Shown here: positions 13,590-22,551 of the stretch, piece by piece | Numbering within the stretch: the first letter of the stretch is position 1 | How the letters are laid out: each line of letters begins with the position of its first letter | DNA from: Aquipluma nitroreducens | Lineage (GTDB): Bacteria; Bacteroidota; Bacteroidia; Bacteroidales; Prolixibacteraceae | Length of the DNA: 64,000 nucleotides | Assembly (NCBI RefSeq): GCF_009689585.1 | Contig: NZ_AP018694.1 | Coordinates: forward strand, 1 to 64,000 | Reading direction: 5' to 3' | Notes under the pieces: generated by a model | The model's input: the letters and a program-made list of their open reading frames with translations, nothing else | Told to the model about the DNA's origin: nothing | Databases searched by the model: none | Translations under genes and position numbers: made by a program

Positions 13590-13704
13590 AACAATTACAT
13601 AGCATTCAAGACTTTTAAAAGGGTAATTTTGCGCCTTGTTAAAAAAGCCGGGTAACGATACCCAAGGTTTTGTTAAAGATCAGAAAATTAAGAAAGAAGC
13701 ATCT

Positions 13705-14151
13705 ATGAAGCGTATTAATGAATACAAGAAATTGTTCAATGTTGAAGCTGACACCGACCTCAAAACATTAAAATCGACATACCGGAATTTGGTAAAAGAA
13801 TGGCATCCCGACAAGTTTCAGGAAGAAGAAATGGCAAAAGAGGCCGAATTGAAAAGCCGTCAAATCATTGATGCGTATCATTTTCTGGTGAGTATTGCGC
13901 CTGAAACGATAGCTGCTAATTTAGAAGAATACAACACCATTACATCCGAATCGAATATCGCTGATTTCAAACACAAAGGACTTTTACTTGAAGTTACTTT
14001 TCTGGATGGCACCACCTACGAATATTTCGGTGTTCCGAAAAGTGTGTACATTAAATTGGTGAATTCGGATAAACAATTGCGGTTTGCAAAGAGGAATATT
14101 TTTAATTCTTACCTGTACCGGAAATCAAAAAGAAGTCTGGAAGTAGCCTAG
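13705..14151 (+). CDS. J-domain protein with KTSC-like C-terminus
   Basis: A 148-residue protein with an N-terminal J domain (KLFNVEADTDLKTLKSTYRN, then WHPDKF with the HPD motif needed to stimulate Hsp70) and a C-terminal KTSC-like domain (LEVTFLDGTTYEYFGVPKSVY). It is probably a DnaK co-chaperone with an unknown client. ATG 13705 begins MKRINEYKKLF; the open frame extends upstream to a TTG at 13636 without domain support. The insertion sequence ends 116 bases before the chosen start and may have disturbed its promoter. Confidence 0.8.
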   Translation: MKRINEYKKLFNVEADTDLKTLKSTYRNLVKEWHPDKFQEEEMAKEAELKSRQIIDAYHFLVSIAPETIAANLEEYNTITSESNIADFKHKGLLLEVTFLDGTTYEYFGVPKSVYIKLVNSDKQLRFAKRNIFNSYLYRKSKRSLEVA

Positions 14152-14279: not shown

Positions 14280-15017
14280 TTACTTACTCAATCGCTCCAC
14301 ATTTTTGCCAATAATAACCAAGGCAGGCATAGGTGGCTTTTCGGTCTCCAGTATCTGGGCAATGTTTCCGAGCGTACCTTCGAAAGCTACCGAGTCGGGC
14401 TGCGAAACTTTGCTTAAAATCTGAACTTTTATTTCCGGAGAAATGGCCTGATCCATTAATCGTTGGGCCAACCGGACCAGTTTATTGAGGCCCATAAAGA
14501 AAATAATGGGAGAACCCGATTTTAGCACCGAAACGAATGTTTCCAGATCGCAGAAATCACCTTCGCAATAGTGACCGGTACCAAACAAAACCATGCTGTT
14601 CTTGCCTCGTTCGGTGAGTGGAATGCCATACAAAGAAGCAGCTCCAAGTGCGGAAGTCACACCGGGGATAACTTCGTAATTCAAACTGTTTTCAATGCAA
14701 AACCTGATTTCTTCGGCGCCACGGCCAAAAATCATCGGATCGCCCGATTTTAGCCTAACCACTTTTTGTCCTTTACCCGCCAATTCAATAATCAACTGGT
14801 TGATCCATTCCTGACGATCGGTTTGATCTTGCCCATCCTGATACAGTTTCCCAACGTAAATCCGCTGAGCATCAGGTTTAGCCAGATTCATTATCTCGTC
14901 ACTAACCAGCGCGTCGTGTAATATACAGTCAGCGTCCTGAATGCGTTTCAATGCTTTAATGGTCAGTAATTCCGGATCACCGGGACCAGCGCCAACTATA
15001 GAAATGAGTGAACCCAT
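14280..15017 (-). CDS. cobA: Uroporphyrinogen-III C-methyltransferase
   Basis: Adds two methyl groups from SAM to uroporphyrinogen III, giving precorrin-2 for siroheme. The 245-residue protein shows SUMT signatures: VGAGPGDPELLTIKA, VRLKSGDPMIFGRGAEE and PGVTSALGAASLYGIPLTER. It is the last gene of the minus-strand sulfite/siroheme operon. Single-domain SUMT agrees with a separate dehydrogenase gene in the same operon (20272-20733) in place of a fused CysG. About 87 bases separate it from the upstream Rossmann-fold gene. Confidence 0.95.
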   Translation of the reverse strand: MGSLISIVGAGPGDPELLTIKALKRIQDADCILHDALVSDEIMNLAKPDAQRIYVGKLYQDGQDQTDRQEWINQLIIELAGKGQKVVRLKSGDPMIFGRGAEEIRFCIENSLNYEVIPGVTSALGAASLYGIPLTERGKNSMVLFGTGHYCEGDFCDLETFVSVLKSGSPIIFFMGLNKLVRLAQRLMDQAISPEIKVQILSKVSQPDSVAFEGTLGNIAQILETEKPPMPALVIIGKNVERLSK

Positions 15018-15104: not shown

Positions 15105-15941
15105 TTACTTTTTACTTGTCACCAGGCTATCGAGGTAATCCATCGGACTTGGGTATTTAAACTTATATTTAAGTAATCGTGCTAATTTACTGCTGTCAAC
15201 TATTTTATAAGCTTCAGCTTCATCAGAAATCAGTGGTGCAGGAAAGCCTGAAATTTGAGCTGCCTTTCCGTAGAAATCCTTTTTGAGCGGATGTTCCGGA
15301 CAGCAGGCGTTCAATGTTTCTCCCCATAGATCTTTTTCCAGAATTGCATCAATTATGCCGATGCAATCATCCTGATGAATCAAGTTCACCGGAATATTTG
15401 CAACTGGACGAGCAGATTTCAGGAGAAAACGTGCCGGATTTCGATCGGCACCAATTAATCCGCCAAACCGCAGAATTGTCGTTTCAAAATCGGTCAGATT
15501 ATTCAACAGATTCTCAGCAGCCAAACAGGCCTTTCCGCTTGCTTTGTCCGGATAAAGCACATCACTTTCATGTGCCGTCTTTAAATTTTCAGGATAAACC
15601 GACGTTGATGAAATGAAAATCACCTTTCGGATACCTGACTTCAGGATGATTGGAATCAGTTGCGCAATCTGAGTTGGAAATATACGCTCAATCTCATCAA
15701 TACGACGAGGAGGAATGGCAATAACCAGCACATCAGTTTCAAAAAATGCAGGGTCATCAACTTCTACATTGTTTTCATTCAACACAATCCGGAATGGCAC
15801 AATGCCTGAAGTACGAAGCAGTCCAAACTTTTCAGGAGAAGTAACCGAGCCTTTTACCGAAAATCGTCGATTCCGTAAATGTTTTCCCAGAGCTACTCCC
15901 AACCAACCGCATCCCAAAATTGAAACTGTTCCCGACTTCAT
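15105..15941 (-). CDS. NAD(P)-binding epimerase-like protein (YeeZ type)
   Basis: A 278-residue Rossmann-fold protein, extended short-chain-dehydrogenase/epimerase type, resembling E. coli YeeZ. It begins with VSILGCGWLGVALGKHL (nucleotide-binding Gly motif), then IFISSTSVYPEN. The substrate is unknown. It lies between hemD and cobA in the siroheme operon, so a link to tetrapyrrole or sulfur metabolism is possible but only inferred from position. Confidence 0.75.
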   Translation of the reverse strand: MKSGTVSILGCGWLGVALGKHLRNRRFSVKGSVTSPEKFGLLRTSGIVPFRIVLNENNVEVDDPAFFETDVLVIAIPPRRIDEIERIFPTQIAQLIPIILKSGIRKVIFISSTSVYPENLKTAHESDVLYPDKASGKACLAAENLLNNLTDFETTILRFGGLIGADRNPARFLLKSARPVANIPVNLIHQDDCIGIIDAILEKDLWGETLNACCPEHPLKKDFYGKAAQISGFPAPLISDEAEAYKIVDSSKLARLLKYKFKYPSPMDYLDSLVTSKK

Positions 15942-15950
15942 CCAGATTTG

Positions 15951-16658
15951 TTAAATGTTTTCTTTCTTCCAGCGCGCTATCGAATCTTGAACAAACGACA
16001 ACTCTTCCTGTTCAGGCGAAAGATAAACTTTATTATCGAATACTCGCCAGGCAGCTCTTGCTGTCGAATTTTCGTTAGCCAAAATGAGCGAGGTTTGATT
16101 TGTGAAATTACCCGATGCTTTGAAATTCTCGATGCTCGAAGGACTAAAAAACAGATAAGCGTCGAATATTCCACTTACAAATTTCTCAATCGGCGTGTTC
16201 TTATACACCTCAATTTCAGAGTATTGAAGAGGAAATACGGAGAACACTGAGGTTATTTCGCTATGCAGCTTGTCGCCACGCAAAAACAAAACAGAGTCGC
16301 CCTGATTTTGACTAATCACATTCTCAGCTAAATCGGATATATTGGAATACGAAGAAATCGAAATTGGCAGATTGAGGTCTTTTAGAATCCCGGCTTCCTT
16401 TTCAGACCAGCAGTACAAACGATCCGACTCGCCCAAGCCAATCTGTGAATGGAATCTGATCAACCAATGAGCCGCATAAACACTGGTAATAACCCATTGC
16501 TTGCGGGTATTTGTCATTGTGCTAAAAAATGACAGATTTGGTTTTTTGTACTCGATACGAAAAAAAGGTTGTTCAATGTATTGAACGTGTTGCTTTTGCA
16601 ACCACTGGCGAGTAACTGCTGAGAGTTTTTCGCCGATAAAAAATACGGGTGTCTTCAT
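15951..16658 (-). CDS. hemD: Uroporphyrinogen-III synthase (HemD-like)
   Basis: Should cyclise hydroxymethylbilane to uroporphyrinogen III, the substrate of the nearby cobA product. HemD sequences are poorly conserved. Here I see two alpha/beta halves, the WVITSVYAAHW stretch that corresponds to the usual 'FTS.NAV' region, and a C-terminal FFSPSSIENF motif typical of the family. ATG 16658 (MKTPVFFIGEKL) lies 13 bases after the cysI stop; an upstream in-frame start at 16688 would overlap cysI. Position between cysI and cobA supports the call. Confidence 0.78.
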   Translation of the reverse strand: MKTPVFFIGEKLSAVTRQWLQKQHVQYIEQPFFRIEYKKPNLSFFSTMTNTRKQWVITSVYAAHWLIRFHSQIGLGESDRLYCWSEKEAGILKDLNLPISISSYSNISDLAENVISQNQGDSVLFLRGDKLHSEITSVFSVFPLQYSEIEVYKNTPIEKFVSGIFDAYLFFSPSSIENFKASGNFTNQTSLILANENSTARAAWRVFDNKVYLSPEQEELSFVQDSIARWKKENI

Positions 16659-16671
16659 GATAAAATATTTT

Positions 16672-18372
16672 TTAATGTCTGAAATCACTTCCTTTCACTA
16701 TTTCATTTACATATTGCTTACGGATAACAAAATCGCCAAACTTTTCCCCTGTGTTTCGGTTCGTTGCGTAATCGGCAATGATGGGATCTAATTCAGCCAG
16801 AATATCATCTTCGGTAAGCGTTTCCTTGTAGAGCGTATTGAGGCGGGTCCCATTAAAATTTCCGCCCAAATAAAGATTATAGTGTCCTTCCGATTTTCCG
16901 ACAAACCCAATTTCAGCCAAATATGGCCGACCACAACCGTTCGGGCAACCGGTCATACGAATCACGATTTCTTCCTGAAACAAGTCGTGCTGATTCAAAA
17001 TCGATTCAATTTTGCTGACCAGTGATGGCAAGTACCTTTCTGCTTCGGCAAACGCCAAACTACAGGTATTGAGCGCTACACAAGCGATTGAATTCTGACG
17101 TAATCCTGAAATTTCGCCAGGCAAAACCCCATTATTTTTCAGGATTTCGCCCACTGTATTCTTTTCATCAGCCGTTACATTAGCAATGATCAAATTTTGA
17201 TTTCCTGTCAGAATAAATTGGCCATTGATGTGTTGAGCCACTTCACGGAGCGCCGATTTCAGATTAAAACCGTTCCGGTCGGCAACCCGGCCACCTTCAA
17301 CAAAAAGCGAAAGGCTCCATTTCGAATCGGTACCTTTCTTCCAGCCCAAACGATCACCATTTCGTGTAAAAGCGTACGGTTTAGCTTCCTGAAGTTCGTA
17401 TCCAAGATAATTGTACAATTCAGCTTTAAACGCTTCGATTCCTAATCGGTCAATCGTATATTTCAGCCTTGAAATTTTACGGTTCTGACGGTTTCCGTTG
17501 TCGCGCTGCACCAAAACCACTTTTTCAGCCACATCAATCACCTGCTCAGGAGTGCAAAAACCAATCACTTCGGCCAATCGCGGATAAGTTTCAGGCATTC
17601 CGAAAGTAGTGCCCATTCCGCCGCCAACTGCCACATTATAGCCAATAATCCGGTTATTCCCGACAATGGCTATAAAACCCAGATCCTGCGAAAAAACATC
17701 AGAATCGTTGTATGGCGGAATTGCAATCGCGATCTTAAATTTCCTTGGCAGATAGCGGTCTCCGTAAATCGGTTCGACATCTTTCTTGCTGTCGGCTATC
17801 AGTTTCTGATCGAGCCAGATTTCATGATATGCAGTAGTCGATGGCAATAAATGCTCACTGATGCGACGCGCAGTTTCATAAACTTCGGCATGCAACTCCG
17901 ACTCTGACGGATTGGGATGACTCATCACATTTCGGTTCACATCGCCACAAGCTGCAATTGTGTCCAGCAATGCGGTATTGATTCCCTGGATGGTTTTCTT
18001 CAGATTCGATTTAATCACACCATGTAACTGAAAAGCCTGACGCGTAGTCAGTTTCAGCGTATGATTGGCATATTGCTCCGAGATTTCATCCATTTGCAGC
18101 CATTGCTTTGGAGTTACAACTCCACCGGGAAGCCTCACCCGAATCAGGAAAGAATAGGCCGGTTCCAGTTTCTGGCGTTTGCGTTCTTTTTCCAAATCAC
18201 GGTCGAACTGTTGGTACAAACCGTGAAACTTTGAGAGCTGGGTATCGGCATAAGCAATTGATCCGGTTATCGGATCGGCTAGGCTCTCAACCAAAGTACC
18301 CCTGAGGTAATTACTTTCGTATTTGATTCGCTCTAACTCTGAAAGTTCATCCCAATTAATAGTATCGTTCAT
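16672..18372 (-). CDS. cysI: Sulfite reductase hemoprotein subunit
   Basis: Reduces sulfite to sulfide by six electrons on a siroheme-[4Fe-4S] centre. The 566-residue length is normal. The cluster ligands are visible as C-x5-C in [19 protein letters not shown] and C-x3-C in [20 protein letters not shown] and CGDVNRNVM are the conserved siroheme-binding stretches. It works with CysJ, encoded 130 bases upstream in the same operon, and needs siroheme made by the products of flanking genes. Confidence 0.95.
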
Positions 18373-18502: not shown

Positions 18503-20275
18503 TTAATACACATCCGTTTGAAAACGTTTCTCCTTTTTCAGGGTTTTCAGGTATTCCAGCGCTTTTTCTTCTGTCAATCCGCCTTGTGTTTCAAATATCC
18601 TGAGTAAAGTGTTTTGTACATCGTGAGCCATTTGTTTCATATCGCCACAGAGGTAAATGTTTGCACCATTTTTCAGCCATTCAAAAACTTCCTTTTGCTT
18701 TTCGATCAAACGGGTTTGCACGTATATTTTTTCCTCCTGATCACGCGAAAAAGCAACGTCAATTTTCTCGAGATAGCCTTCTTTTAGGAGCTTCTGCCAT
18801 TCGACCTGGTATAAAAAGTCGGAATGAAAACGTCGTTCGCCAAAGAACAACCAGGTTTTTCCTTTCTGATTGTTGGCCTCGCGTTGTTGCAAAAATGCTC
18901 GGTATGGTGCAACTCCGGTACCTGCTCCAATCAAGATCACGGGTGTTTCTTCATTTTCCGGAAGCTTGAATGCCGGATTCTTTTCGATGAACACCGTAAC
19001 CTGCGAATCAATTTCAATGCGGTCGGCTAAATAAGTTGAACAGGCTCCACCGCGTAAACGGCCTTTATTTGAATAGCGAACTGTTGATACCGTAATATGG
19101 ACTTCATCGCCAACAGCTGCCTGACTTGAAGAAATAGAATACAAACGCGCAGGAAATGCCCGTAAAACATCAGCTAAATCCTGTGCTGAGAATGAGAATG
19201 GGAAGTCTTCCAAAAGGTCAAGAACATCGTTTCCATATAAATATCGATCAAGAAGTTCCTCATTTTCAATTACTTTATGCAACTCATTGTTTCCGGTCTT
19301 TGCCTGATATTTCTGAATCACATCCCGATTAATAACAGTAATTTCCAAGTGGTTTGACAAGGCCTCCAATAGCGAAAAGACACCGTCTTTAATGGTTACT
19401 GACTCAGTTCCATCGAAACCTAAATGATTGAGAATGTCATCGACCAACTGAGGTGGATTGTTGGCCAGAATACCCACAGAATCACCAGGTTCGTAAGTAA
19501 TTCCAGATCCCTCAAGCGAAAGCTCTACATGATAAACTTCCTTATCCGAATCGCGACCAGTAATTTTCACTTTGTCAACAACAGTGGCAAGGAAAGGATT
19601 CTTTCGCGTGTAATTTTCAATGTTTTCAGTACTATTTTGAATATTTGATGGAGTATTATCAGTCGGAATTTCGGCAAAAACATCAGTAAAATCAGCAATC
19701 CAGCGATCTACTTCTTCATCAAAATCAACATCTAAAGTCAGAATTGGCAAAATAGAATTTGCCCCTGATTTTTCTAAAGCCTGATCGATATCGATTCCTG
19801 TTTTGCAAAAAAACTTGTAACTCCTATCGCCCAATGCCACCACCGAATAGTTTAGATTGGGCAGTTTTGGCGAACGTTTTCCGGTAATAAAACCATGAAA
19901 ATCTTCAGCCATTGCAGGTGGCTCGCCTTCGCCATGAGTACTTACAATGAAAACCACATTGGTTTCCGAGATCAATTGTCGGGTCTTGTAATCGTCCAGA
20001 GCAACCGAAACGACTTCGACGCCACGATTGGCAAGCTTTCCGGCCAGTTTTCCGGCAATGATTTTACTTCGTCCGGTATGTGTACCATAAAGTATTTTCA
20101 GCTGTTTATCGCTTTTGGGCTGACTTTTAACAACCTGCTGAGTAGTTCCGGAAGAAGCCAAAAATCCCTGGAAATAACCATTTATCCAGAGCAATTGCTC
20201 TCGGTTTAAACCGGCAGTCAAGCTGGTCAAGGCGTTTAACTGCTGTTCATTTAATGGACTCAATTGAATGCTCAT
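18503..20275 (-). CDS. cysJ: Sulfite reductase flavoprotein subunit
   Basis: Transfers electrons from NADPH through FAD and FMN to CysI. The 590 residues comprise an N-terminal flavodoxin domain (LYGTHTGRSKIIAGKLA; VALGDRSYKFFC), an FAD domain (RLYSISSSQ; GACSTYLAD) and an NADPH domain (LIGAGTGVAPYRAFLQQR; LFFGERR) ending in VY. Its start overlaps the end of the precorrin-2 dehydrogenase gene by four bases, which couples siroheme formation and sulfite reduction. Confidence 0.95.
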   Translation of the reverse strand: MSIQLSPLNEQQLNALTSLTAGLNREQLLWINGYFQGFLASSGTTQQVVKSQPKSDKQLKILYGTHTGRSKIIAGKLAGKLANRGVEVVSVALDDYKTRQLISETNVVFIVSTHGEGEPPAMAEDFHGFITGKRSPKLPNLNYSVVALGDRSYKFFCKTGIDIDQALEKSGANSILPILTLDVDFDEEVDRWIADFTDVFAEIPTDNTPSNIQNSTENIENYTRKNPFLATVVDKVKITGRDSDKEVYHVELSLEGSGITYEPGDSVGILANNPPQLVDDILNHLGFDGTESVTIKDGVFSLLEALSNHLEITVINRDVIQKYQAKTGNNELHKVIENEELLDRYLYGNDVLDLLEDFPFSFSAQDLADVLRAFPARLYSISSSQAAVGDEVHITVSTVRYSNKGRLRGGACSTYLADRIEIDSQVTVFIEKNPAFKLPENEETPVILIGAGTGVAPYRAFLQQREANNQKGKTWLFFGERRFHSDFLYQVEWQKLLKEGYLEKIDVAFSRDQEEKIYVQTRLIEKQKEVFEWLKNGANIYLCGDMKQMAHDVQNTLLRIFETQGGLTEEKALEYLKTLKKEKRFQTDVY

Positions 20276-20733
20276 ATTTGTGTGTTTTTAAGATTTTCTA
20301 AATATTCCTGAATCAGATTCCTGACTCGAATTGCTTCGTAAACATTTTCAGCATTTGAGTTTACAGCAACCGACAGATTTCCATCGCGATAAATTGCCGG
20401 GGAAACAAACTGACAAAGAGTTGGATTATCATGAACATTAACCAAAACACCGGCCTCTTTCCCATCCTCCGCAATCTGCTTGTCAAGCGTTTCGTTATTT
20501 GTGCAGGAATAAAGCATCAGATAGCCGTTCAAATCGCTTTTTTCATACTTTTTCAGGTGACAAATTACACCTGAAGCATAAACTTCGTCGACGATATTCC
20601 CGGCCACCACTTCGATATTTGCACCAGAGCGCTGCAAAATCCTGATTTTCTTCAAAGCGCTCTGCCCGCCGCCAATGATCAATATTTTACTGTTCGAAAT
20701 ATCGATTGCTATAGGTAAATAGTTCTTTTCCAT
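20272..20733 (-). CDS. Precorrin-2 dehydrogenase (CysG-N/Met8-like), short
   Basis: Should oxidise precorrin-2 to sirohydrochlorin and possibly insert iron. The 153-residue protein has the NAD-binding core KILIIGGGQSALKKIRIL and the family stretch VLVNVHDNPTLCQFVSPA with the conserved Asp. It ends soon after (YLENLKNTQI), so the C-terminal dimerisation part found in CysG and Met8 is mostly missing. Chelation may be weak or done elsewhere. It overlaps cysJ by four bases and follows DUF2061 after 8 bases. Confidence 0.85.
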   Translation of the reverse strand: MEKNYLPIAIDISNSKILIIGGGQSALKKIRILQRSGANIEVVAGNIVDEVYASGVICHLKKYEKSDLNGYLMLYSCTNNETLDKQIAEDGKEAGVLVNVHDNPTLCQFVSPAIYRDGNLSVAVNSNAENVYEAIRVRNLIQEYLENLKNTQI

Positions 20734-20741
20734 ACACTTGA

Positions 20742-20972
20742 TTATATTTGATAGTCTGAATCTATTTTCTTAATCCGGCCAAAATTGATCCGATTCCAGG
20801 TTCGTTCATGAAAGTAATACAGAGCCATTTTGGTAAACACTTCAATTCCGCCAATCGATAAAGCTAACGTAGGTTTTCCCGTAATTATCAACGAAATAAT
20901 AATGGTATCAATGGTTCCAATGGTTCGCCATGAAATCGACTTTACAATACTCCGGTATGATTTTTCACTCAT
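20742..20972 (-). CDS. DUF2061 small membrane protein
   Basis: A 76-residue protein with the DUF2061 pattern: KSISWRTIGTIDTIIISLIITG, then IGGIEVFTKMALYYFHERTWNRI. Two short hydrophobic helices are visible. The function is unknown. It is the first gene after the attenuator of the sulfite/siroheme operon, which ties it to sulfur assimilation by context only. ATG 20972 is chosen; an in-frame TTG at 20993 lies inside the terminator T-run and cannot be the main start. Confidence 0.82.
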   Translation of the reverse strand: MSEKSYRSIVKSISWRTIGTIDTIIISLIITGKPTLALSIGGIEVFTKMALYYFHERTWNRINFGRIKKIDSDYQI

Positions 20973-20991
20973 GTTCGTGCTATTTGATGTC

Positions 20992-21025
20992 AAAAAAAAA
21001 GCCCCTCTGATTTCCAGAAGGGCTT
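20992..21025 (-). terminator. Attenuator terminator before the sulfite/siroheme operon
   Basis: On the minus strand AAGCCCTTCTG and CAGAGGGGCTT form an 11-bp stem with one G-T wobble and a GAAAT loop, followed by nine T (20992-21000). It ends 20 bases before the DUF2061 start codon and follows the leader stop by 25 bases. Confidence 0.88.
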
Positions 21026-21074
21026 ATAAATATCTTGGTAACGATTCACTTATATCCTGACCACCTTCTGAAAA
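21011..21074 (-). promoter_or_regulatory. Antiterminator stem of the Met-Cys leader
   Basis: TTTTCAGAAGG in the leader ORF (21064-21074) can pair with CCTTCTGGAAA (21011-21021), giving 11 bp with one G-U. The second strand is the 5' arm of the terminator, so the two structures exclude each other. The first strand begins five codons after the last Cys codon. Confidence 0.72.
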
Positions 21075-21169
21075 GTCGAATTAAAACACATACACATGCA
21101 CATACACATAGTATGAGCCATGATCAGTGAAGAATTCATTTTTGCTATTTCAGAAGAATATTGTTTCAT
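21050..21169 (-). CDS. Met-Cys-rich leader peptide (39 residues)
   Basis: An ORF that starts MKQYSSEIAKMN, contains MAHTMCMCMCMCF and ends FQKVVRI. Four cysteine codons (TGT/TGC) alternate with four methionine codons. Inner ATGs at 21139 and 21121 are alternative starts that keep the Cys run. The stop lies just before the operon terminator. The layout fits a leader whose translation senses charged tRNA-Cys and/or tRNA-Met: stalling on the run would leave TTTTCAGAAGG free to form the antiterminator. The protein itself has no recognisable function. The run derives from a simple ATGTGY repeat, so chance is not excluded. Confidence 0.7.
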   Translation of the reverse strand: MKQYSSEIAKMNSSLIMAHTMCMCMCMCFNSTFQKVVRI

Positions 21170-21207
21170 TAGAAAAAGACTTTATTGTCTGTAATTACTT
21201 TATAGTG

Positions 21208-21237
21208 CAAATGTAGATTCTAATTCTACAAATCAAA
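21208..21237 (-). promoter_or_regulatory. Promoter of the sulfite/siroheme operon
   Basis: TTTG (21234-21237) and TACATTTG (21208-21215) are separated by 18 bases on the minus strand and match the Bacteroidota -33/-7 pattern. Transcription would begin near 21201, about 32 bases before the leader ATG. TGTAGA and TCTACA, separated by 7 bases, form an inverted repeat between the two elements and could be an operator. Confidence 0.62.
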
Positions 21238-21290
21238 ACAATTTGATGTTTATTTTTCATTAAAAAATGAAAATGCTACAAATTGGGTTC

Positions 21291-21298
21291 TATATTTG
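21291..21298 (+). promoter_or_regulatory. -7 element of the ATP-grasp gene
   Basis: TATATTTG matches TAnnTTTG and lies 24 bases before the chosen ATG. No clear -33 TTTG was found at the right distance. Confidence 0.45.
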
Positions 21299-21321
21299 CC
21301 TTCTGGTTTAAGCAAAATTTT

Positions 21322-22551
21322 ATGGCCGAGGCAAATGTTTACTATTTCAATCCAACGTGCGAACTGGCTGTTGCCAATGGATCATTCAGTTATCAGCCTC
21401 CGCTTTTGCTTCAGGAAATGGAACGCGACTTATCAATACTTCCTTTCGCCTTTTGTACTGAAAATGATTTTGTACTGGCCGAAAACCAACCTACTCCCGA
21501 TTTTCAACAAAAAATGCGTATGGCAGGATTTGCGTTGCCACAGTTTTGCAGTATAGCCGAACTGGAAGCTCTTCCCAATGGTTCAATTGATGCCATTTAT
21601 CCCTGGGGTTGGAGTCCAGCAGCTCATTTCAAACTTAAAAATCTGAAAGAAAAATGCTCTGTCAAATTCAGAGAAAGTCCGGTTTTTAACTGGGAAGAGG
21701 AACATAAATTACTCTTTGAGCGCTCTACATCACTTGATTTTCTAAAAGGAATACTAGCAAACAATGCTCCTGACTGGTTTATCAAAAAAGAAATGACAGG
21801 TTCCAAAGTGACCACCTGTGAAGAAATTGACTTAATTTTAAGGGATCATTCACCATTGGTTCTGAAGGCTCCAATGAGTTCTTCCGGAAGAGGAATTCAG
21901 ATTATCCGGAATACCAAATTGAATACATCAAACAAACAATGGATTTTAGGAGTATTAAAACAACAAAGTTACCTGATTGCAGAACCTCACCTCGAAAAGT
22001 TGATTGATTTATCGTTTCAGTTTCGGGTATTGTCCGACTCCAAAATTGAATATCTGGGCTTTTCAATCTTCGAAACCAATTCGAATGGACAGTATCGGGG
22101 AACCTTAATCCATCCGGATTTGAAGAAGATTGCACCTGATGAAAATGCATCTGAATTAATGGAAATGATTAGCGCAACGGCCAAAATAACAAGCAGAGCG
22201 TTGGAAAGCTCGAACTACGCCCACTGTCACCGTGGATTTTTGGGAGTTGACGCGATGATCTTCAAACATCAGAAAGACTTATTGATGCAGCCGTGTATCG
22301 AAATAAACAGCCGCATGAATATGGGAGTTTTAACGATGTTTATAGAGAAACGAATCCATCCGGATGCAACGGGAAAATTTGAGCTCTTTTATGGGAAAAC
22401 TGGAGATTTTGAAACTTGTACGTTAAACCAAATGCAACTTAAACCACCCCATTGGGGGGAAGGAAAGCTTTTTTCGGGATTTGTAACCTTGATTGAACCA
22501 AGCAAACAAAATAAGTTTGGAGCCTATATTTCTTTGGGTGAAGCTAAATAG
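21322..22551 (+). CDS. Uncharacterised ATP-grasp-like protein
   Basis: A 409-residue protein with signs of an ATP-grasp ligase: SPLVLKAPMSSSGRGIQII resembles the ATP-binding Lys and Gly-rich loop, and PCIEINSRMNMG resembles the metal-binding Glu-x-Asn. The N-terminal ~130 residues begin VYYFNPTCELAVANGS and form a domain I do not recognise. The substrate is unknown. It is divergent from the sulfite operon and overlaps the end of the receiver gene on the other strand by 28 bases. ATG 21322 starts MAEANVYYFNP; the frame extends upstream to 21283 without support. Confidence 0.65.
   Translation: MAEANVYYFNPTCELAVANGSFSYQPPLLLQEMERDLSILPFAFCTENDFVLAENQPTPDFQQKMRMAGFALPQFCSIAELEALPNGSIDAIYPWGWSPAAHFKLKNLKEKCSVKFRESPVFNWEEEHKLLFERSTSLDFLKGILANNAPDWFIKKEMTGSKVTTCEEIDLILRDHSPLVLKAPMSSSGRGIQIIRNTKLNTSNKQWILGVLKQQSYLIAEPHLEKLIDLSFQFRVLSDSKIEYLGFSIFETNSNGQYRGTLIHPDLKKIAPDENASELMEMISATAKITSRALESSNYAHCHRGFLGVDAMIFKHQKDLLMQPCIEINSRMNMGVLTMFIEKRIHPDATGKFELFYGKTGDFETCTLNQMQLKPPHWGEGKLFSGFVTLIEPSKQNKFGAYISLGEAK

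Follow-up and report, generated by a model that had tools for sequence, protein, structure and literature searches.

Attenuators such as those of the thr and ilv operons are controlled by more than one amino acid. For cysteine, a 2020 report by Canestrari is said to concern poly-cysteine leaderless open reading frames (ORFs), which according to its title are cysteine-responsive attenuators, and it is reportedly cited as a case of translation attenuation; Lopatovskaya and co-workers published a comparative survey in 2010, known to us from reference lists, which may contain related cases. Here we analyze a leader ORF with alternating methionine and cysteine codons that precedes the sulfite-reduction and siroheme operon in positions 1 to 64,000 of Aquipluma nitroreducens contig NZ_AP018694.1 (Bacteroidota; Prolixibacteraceae); this whole stretch of 64,000 nucleotides (nt) is called the window. 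Among papers that were accessible in part, to which all statements about them refer, PMC13236596 and PMC10272879 describe ribosome-mediated transcription attenuation of the trp type; Seliverstov 2005 (PMC1262725) describes Cys-run leader ORFs before mycobacterial cys operons, with the runs near the stop codon and no conserved terminator found; and, for Bacteroidota, PMC9723704 reports "strong clues" for leader-peptide attenuation before amino-acid operons of Flavobacterium psychrophilum, and PMC7366714 short ORFs that resemble leader peptides. Neither Cys nor Met leaders are named in the accessible parts of PMC9723704, PMC7366714, PMC2965389, and PMC4833913, and in searches of the open-licence full-text literature we found neither Met-Cys leaders, nor an intrinsic terminator paired with a cysteine leader, nor serial Cys leaders described. 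A preliminary description of the locus knew of no account of its layout in Bacteroidota; this agrees with the open-licence literature, but leader-peptide attenuation as such had already been suggested for the phylum (PMC9723704). On the evidence below, we put the probability that the leader attenuates transcription through the ribosome, as in trp, and is an instance of leader-peptide attenuation, at about 0.84-0.85.

The leader peptide ORF, MKQYSSEIAKMNSSLIMAHTMCMCMCMCFNSTFQKVVRI, comprises 39 codons and a TAA at 21050..21169 of the minus strand, on which all features of the leader and its operon lie; its ATG is aligned in 17/17 leaders of the genus. The control-codon run, MCMCMCMC (ATG TGT ATG TGC ATG TGT ATG TGT), is at 21086..21109, 33 nt from the stop codon. 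Between the two lies arm 2, TTTTCAGAAGG (21064..21074, codons FQK), the 5' half of the predicted antiterminator; its 3' half, arm 3, CCTTCTGGAAA (21011..21021), overlaps the 5' half of an intrinsic terminator made of arms 3 and 4, which occupies 20992..21025 including its T tract. Arms 2 and 3 have 11 paired positions, one of them G-U. The terminator stem-loop (21025..20999) is followed by a tract of nine T, with 19 nt between the end of the tract and the DUF2061 ATG (20972). Two terminator-like sites were detected in 20500-22000, compared to an average of 0.9 in shuffled sequences, and this one scores higher. The ORF with its Met-Cys run, stop, and terminator, the 11-bp pairing of the segment after the run with the 5' arm of that terminator, and the nine T shortly before the first operon gene had all been put forward in the preliminary description, and each was confirmed at these positions. 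Absent from it were arm 1, TTCTTCTGAAA (21148..21158, codons FSSEI), which is the partner of arm 2, an SDR-like gene at 15105-15941, and a likely promoter of the Bacteroidota type.

This putative promoter (21208..21237) consists of TTTG at 21237..21234, an 18-nt gap, and TACATTTG (TAnnTTTG) at 21215..21208, a pair that we take to be the Bacteroidota promoter form; transcription presumably starts near 21201. The TAnnTTTG element ends 38 nt before the leader ATG, so that the 5' leader would be ~30 nt long, with the start position estimated from the motif. Across 139 distinct leader records from all loci, TANNTTTG occurs within 100 nt before 61 of the ORFs, at a median of 46 nt before the ATG, compared to 9.4 (sd 2.9) in shuffles. 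The 139 records were picked by Cys/Met density and a downstream terminator, and these two features are therefore not independent evidence in that set. The upstream neighbor of the leader (21283..22551) is on the plus strand and thus divergent, so the leader terminator can act solely on the minus-strand leader transcript; that it belongs to the upstream gene was ruled out on the same ground. In the 5.71-Mb genome, TGYATGTGYATGTGY occurs at this locus only, as two overlapping matches (the reversed control pattern has one match), and the spaced pair CAGAAGG..CCCTTCTG has its single occurrence at the leader (the control pattern has none).

The leader RNA folds with z = -2.83, and 0/200 shuffles were equally stable; in the most stable fold, arm 1 is paired with arm 2. 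The leader thus carries a full trp-like set of predicted arms, 1:2, 2:3, and 3:4. Pairing of arm 2 with its own arm 3 was examined in 61 representatives at <45% end-anchored identity, drawn from the 139 records after ORFs of <45 nt had been dropped, the pairs being chosen without use of Cys/Met density or the terminator. The best helix scored 19.84 for native pairs and 14.95 (sd 0.34) for exchanged ones, and 0/2000 permutations reached the native value. The same excess is present separately in the sulfite-reductase-type leaders (28) and in the others (33), and control windows had none: the native value was reached by 710/2000 permutations for the 59 nt before the ORF, by 835/2000 for the first 30 nt of the ORF (52 leaders), and by 634/2000 for the 59 nt after the T tract. 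Pairs with very different letters are found, for example CGAGAGGTAGTGG/CCACTACCTGTCG (L207), ATTCGCGGAGGGC/GCCCTTCACGGAT (L181), and CAAGAGGC/GCCTCTTG (L184). Arm 1 and arm 2 scored 16.42 in 26 sulfite-reductase-type leaders, compared to 14.39 (sd 0.44) after permutation (0/2000), and in 28 other leaders 1/2000 permutations reached the native value. In the terminator consensus stem of 36 leaders, 5/11 pairs are changed on both sides. As far as sequence comparison goes, the arms are under selection, and the co-variation of arms 2 and 3 across 61 leaders with flat controls supports the earlier claim that antiterminator and terminator exclude each other. The residues SSEI are conserved in the 17 genus leaders (S in 15, S in 15, E in 16, and I in 17); that arm 1 lies in these codons may explain this even if the peptide as such serves no function.

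The spacing of these parts is suited to a ribosome. In the window, the first base of the last Cys codon precedes arm 2 by 14 nt, and the stop follows 11 nt after the end of the arm; among sulfite-reductase-type leaders, 68 have a clear helix, and in these arm 2 starts a median of 15 nt after the first base of that codon (at least 12 nt in 54/68) and ends a median of 8 nt before the stop. Given the size of the ribosome footprint, a ribosome on the last Cys codon would free arm 2, and one at the stop codon would cover it. Translation of the leader, stalling, a response to both amino acids, and the size of the effect are what we infer from this arrangement, as follows. RNA polymerase would start near 21201, and a ribosome would translate the 39-codon leader. 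With charged tRNA-Cys and tRNA-Met plentiful, it would reach the TAA 11 nt past arm 2 and cover that arm, leaving arm 3 to pair with arm 4 and transcription to terminate before DUF2061. Were either charged tRNA scarce, the ribosome would stall in the Met-Cys run and open the arm 1:arm 2 hairpin; arm 2, now free, would pair with arm 3 while arm 4 is still to be synthesized, the terminator would be avoided, and read-through would transcribe DUF2061, precorrin-2 dehydrogenase, cysJ, cysI, hemD, the SDR gene, and cobA. With no translation of the leader, arm 1 would hold arm 2 and the terminator would form. That either amino acid alone may suffice as the signal is the weakest step of this scheme.

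The leader is associated with the operon well beyond the window. In named genomes, where the best 80 of 99 relatives of DUF2061 were surveyed, it is found in 33/33 loci in which a precorrin-2 dehydrogenase of >=47% identity comes after DUF2061; names among them are Prolixibacteraceae, Draconibacterium, Mariniphaga, Maribellus, Marinifilum, and Labilibaculum. Two of the other 47 loci have it, L045 (Melioribacter, DUF2061-cysH-cysD) and L078 (Vicinamibacterales, DUF2061-cysH); judged from their ORFs, both operons would be for sulfate assimilation. The L078 leader, from a different phylum, has AACRCCCC and then a strong terminator, and its arm 2:arm 3 pairing is weak. L045 and L330 have, ~100 nt before DUF2061 and behind a normal leader and terminator, a second ORF ending in MCCC or MHTCMCNNCMCCC at its stop; no terminator was seen after this second ORF in either locus, a likeness to the mycobacterial type.

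In the GTDB family of the window, DUF2061 is present in 67/140 genomes, and 77 loci were read among the 79 matches listed. Those with precorrin-2 dehydrogenase or cysJ <=1 kb after DUF2061 were counted as the siroheme/cysJ type (n = 65): the leader is directly upstream in 51 and at the head of a longer operon in six, three have an eroded run, and five have none. The longer operons begin with hemA in four cases, where TIGR01035 confirmed one and two genomes are nearly alike, and with cysD in two, where TIGR02039 confirmed one. The leader was found in 0/12 family DUF2061 loci that lack both precorrin-2 dehydrogenase and cysJ; in five of the seven such loci with their upstream side read, the neighbors resemble cysC or cysQ by eye, which probably points to sulfation rather than assimilation. 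Because the leader accompanies the assimilatory DUF2061 loci and none of these 12, it appears to track assimilatory operons, placed before whichever gene comes first. DUF2061 itself was rejected as the associate of the leader, as DUF2061 loci without sulfur-assimilation genes have no leader.

Similar leaders precede other sulfur genes. The source genome has a second one, MKANFSYMYMCCCYKRSGEGMFSTNI with its own terminator, whose stop lies 94 nt before cysK (TIGR01139, over cut-off); cysK was taken as an anchor after this leader had been seen, and of the 30 best-matching family cysK loci that were read, 27 carry such a leader. A covariance model, R1, has matches in 190/395 phylum genomes at E <= 0.05, but many of these begin partway into the model and resemble terminators with no leader, and 190 is thus not a count of leaders. 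In the source genome, R1 has 15 matches at E <= 5, of which two, that of the window and that of cysK, come with a leader. Forty-nine R1-fetched loci besides the window were read (29 returned and 20 fetched, L194 and L211 overlapping), and a leader with a terminator was seen in 26, one being the cysK locus of the window genome. The first genes behind leaders found in this way include, over cut-off, O-acetylhomoserine (OAH) sulfhydrylase (two checked, the remaining cases being assigned from N-termini only), cysH, metN, and a sulfate-binding protein; a rhodanese-domain protein (nearest to 3-mercaptopyruvate sulfurtransferase), an EamA exporter, and an OsmC-like protein are over Pfam but below NCBIfam cut-offs. 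A different Cys-rich peptide was seen in L165 (3281-3382) and L170, ~400-800 nt upstream of cysD: it is rich in glycine and cysteine (..NKVRNQSEIVTG..CAS), is alike in these two genomes of one genus, and has no terminator after it. In L180, a Cys-ending second ORF (MSCLMYCCCCC) lies between a Met-Cys leader and the gene for the sulfate-binding protein.

Some operons have two leaders in series, each with its own terminator. Nineteen such pairs occurred in 18 loci: all 11 loci of the Marinifilum/Labilibaculum type (L028, L030-L032, L034, L035, and L039-L043, upstream of DUF2061) have one, and the remaining eight pairs are in seven loci (L181, L184, L187, L190, L191, L195 on both strands, and L218). 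In the second leader of the Marinifilum type, the antiterminator arm straddles the stop codon and is not inside the ORF. Beside the tandem Met-Cys leaders of L187, on the opposite strand (1043-1149, minus), is a SAM-II riboswitch (Rfam RF01726, over gathering score), so that a sulfur-sensing RNA and putative further ones are close neighbors there. We give even odds to the wider proposition that many Bacteroidota have a sulfur-amino-acid regulon under Met-plus-Cys leader peptides, which would act as two-signal sensors at sites with no known riboswitch, before genes for sulfate uptake, sulfate and sulfite reduction, siroheme and the hemA precursor step, cysK, OAH sulfhydrylase, methionine import, and sulfur-carbon enzymes, with two attenuators in series per operon in several lineages multiplying repression.

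Within the attenuator reading, the question arises of what is sensed. The operon serves sulfate reduction and the synthesis of cysteine, the accessible parts of the literature present the mycobacterial leaders as runs of cysteine, and the genus cysK leaders tip toward Cys (MYMCCC), with the central CCC kept in 15, 14, and 14 of 15 at its three positions (15 of the 16 listed leaders, picked by a pattern asking for MC, which L313 did not fit); the leader might thus sense cysteine alone, the Met codons being neutral filler or keeping the run unstructured. The Met content argues otherwise. Because the first detector had counted Met, selection was repeated on Cys only over 235 loci fetched by gene, with cysK among the anchors on account of the leader already seen there, Met not being used for choosing: in the 34 representatives with a terminator, internal Met amounts to 13.8% and Cys to 14.7%, whereas Met is 1.8% in 147 control Cys-rich ORFs without a terminator from the gene-anchored loci, and over all loci the values are 14.5% vs 2.1%. 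In the 17 genus leaders, the three aligned Met columns, at 50/51 Met, are more constrained than the three Cys columns, at 37/51 Cys; one Cys column is 17/17 with TGT and TGC both in use. Codon counts are 420 TGT and 132 TGC in the redundant leader set, and 55 and 60 in mechanical ORFs of >=200 codons in the window. The three eroded runs likewise lost Cys and retained their methionines, with one cysteine left, and leaders before the methionine genes OAH sulfhydrylase and metN show the same Met-Cys mixture. We therefore regard sensing of cysteine alone as unlikely, and sensing of both amino acids as probable, although with less confidence than attenuation itself; the weights of the two may differ by operon.

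The other alternatives dispense with termination, with the peptide, or with function altogether. Control at the level of translation, in which the leader and its hairpins gate ribosome access to DUF2061 and no transcription is terminated, could draw on the second leaders of L045 and L330, which end in Cys runs with no terminator seen, and on the little use that Bacteroidota make of Shine-Dalgarno sequences. The absence of such sequences is also mentioned in the accessible parts of PMC9723704. Yet L001-L177 hold 79 distinct Cys/Met-rich ORFs, and a hairpin and T tract come after 76 of them; the DUF2061 start of the window is past the T tract and outside the hairpins, and in Draconibacterium and Maribellus 74-124 nt separate the T tract from the matched part of DUF2061 (this distance may shrink by some tens of nt if counted to the start codon); we consider translational gating quite improbable. 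An RNA that binds a metabolite or protein in the manner of a riboswitch, the short ORF being incidental, seems less probable still. In many bacteria, sulfur genes are under the control of SAM riboswitches, and L187 has a SAM-II close to its tandem leaders, but what is conserved here is codons and complementary arms, with no aptamer fold. No Rfam covariance model reached its gathering score in the window, and the seven Rfam matches in the leader up to E = 1 were all far below theirs; a riboswitch was rejected on these grounds. Finally, the run of the window is four copies of ATGTGY and could in principle be a chance hexanucleotide repeat, (ATGTGY)n, beside an ordinary terminator. Elsewhere, however, the same residues come from different DNA (MTCMMCMCC, CCCMCM, MYMCCC, and MMMCCMM), TGT and TGC vary at the Cys columns, and arm co-variation is independent of the run; the simple repeat was accordingly rejected and is barely credible.

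Several observations weigh against attenuation, or against its generality. Once arm 4 is included, the terminator form wins at equilibrium even after a stall (-25.6 vs -20.2 kcal/mol with 2:3 enforced), whereas a fold that runs only as far as arm 3, beginning where a ribosome stalled at the last Cys codon has its leading edge, gives the antiterminator at -16.9 kcal/mol; the check suggested in the preliminary description, folding the RNA with a stalled ribosome, was thus favorable before arm 4 and unfavorable after it. Antitermination must therefore be kinetic. Attenuation of the trp operon is likewise kinetic. The last Cys codon is <12 nt from arm 2 in 14/68 leaders, and arm 1:arm 2 pairing is weak in some lineages, e.g., in Marinifilum-type second leaders (best helix scores 9-13). 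No leader was found in 5/65 family operons (L114, L145, L146, L150, and L160; only ~720 nt of L150 were covered, and L146 was followed no further than its contig end), and phylum-wide it accompanies 2 of the 29 DUF2061 loci read. In L091, L104, and L115 (genomes G018, G019, and G008), the ORF, arms, and terminator are kept, and MYMCMW or MDMCMW replaces the run. The cysK leader is missing too in G008 and G019 (L311 and L312), the two eroded-run genomes with their cysK upstream region read, although G008 also carries an intact leader at a second locus, L094; this genus lineage may be losing the control. Leaders are patchy before OAH sulfhydrylase (1/30 best-scoring loci and 1/20 further upstream regions), and none was found upstream of cysH, SLC13-cysDN, and two OAH-sulfhydrylase genes of the source genome. 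Operons that persist while the run or pairing is lost, which the preliminary description had named as counting against it, do occur in part, at the three eroded genus loci and the five leaderless family operons, and 51/65 keep the leader directly upstream. On balance, its proposal of an amino-acid leader attenuator before the sulfite-reduction/siroheme operon is supported by operon association, arm co-variation, the geometry of stop and run, and the excess of both Met and Cys.

The gene names given to the operon largely hold. DUF2061 (20742..20972; PF09834, 79.5 bits), a membrane protein and the first gene, is followed by precorrin-2 dehydrogenase, or the siroheme synthase N-terminal domain (20272..20733; TIGR01470 and PF13241), cysJ (18503..20275; TIGR01931, 723 bits), and cysI (16672..18372; TIGR02041, 816.9 bits), and, further downstream, cobA, the cysG C-terminal uroporphyrinogen-III C-methyltransferase (14280..15017; TIGR01469), all over curated cut-offs. 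The hemD-like uroporphyrinogen-III synthase (15951..16688) is over the Pfam cut-off (PF02602, 36.8 bits) but below that of NCBIfam, and its name stands only to that extent. Between hemD and cobA is the SDR-like gene (15105..15941), an NAD(P)-binding protein just over cut-off to PF13460, whose name is unrelated to siroheme synthesis. The 3' end of the operon meets a convergent plus-strand gene with DnaJ and KTSC domains (13636-14151).

If the attenuator reading is true, the recurrence of small Cys-Met peptides before sulfur genes would be explained, and a mechanism of sulfur control could be read from sequence alone, making the sulfur regulons of uncultured Bacteroidota predictable. Amino-acid attenuation would be extended to cysteine with an intrinsic terminator, one classical attenuator type would sense two sulfur amino acids and be repeated before many sulfur genes, sometimes doubled, and DUF2061, a family of unknown function, would be placed under likely sulfur control.

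Compared to described systems, the leader of the window is closest in form to the enterobacterial trp, his, thr, and ilv attenuators, which also have a leader ORF with control codons, arms pairing as 1:2, 2:3, and 3:4, a terminator before the first gene, and a stop beside arm 2; it differs from them in its control pair of Cys and Met, in its occurrence in Bacteroidota, in having arm 1 within the first ten of 39 codons, and in that some relatives of the locus have two attenuators in series. The uORF attenuators of ilvBNC (PMC10272879 and PMC13236596) resemble it in a uORF rich in cognate codons with terminator and antiterminator, but, as far as the accessible parts go, they concern branched-chain amino acids and Actinobacteria. 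The attenuators of Flavobacterium psychrophilum (PMC9723704) share its phylum and the association with amino-acid biosynthesis operons, whereas neither an amino acid nor a sulfur operon is named in the accessible parts. The mycobacterial poly-Cys ORFs share Cys codons before cys operons and cysteine shortage as the proposed signal; in the accessible parts, however, their Cys run is near the stop, no conserved terminator is found, and the title calls them leaderless, whereas the leader of the window has a predicted 5' leader of ~30 nt, Met/Cys alternation, and a clear terminator and antiterminator. The type of attenuation is thus already known; its Met-Cys leader form is new.

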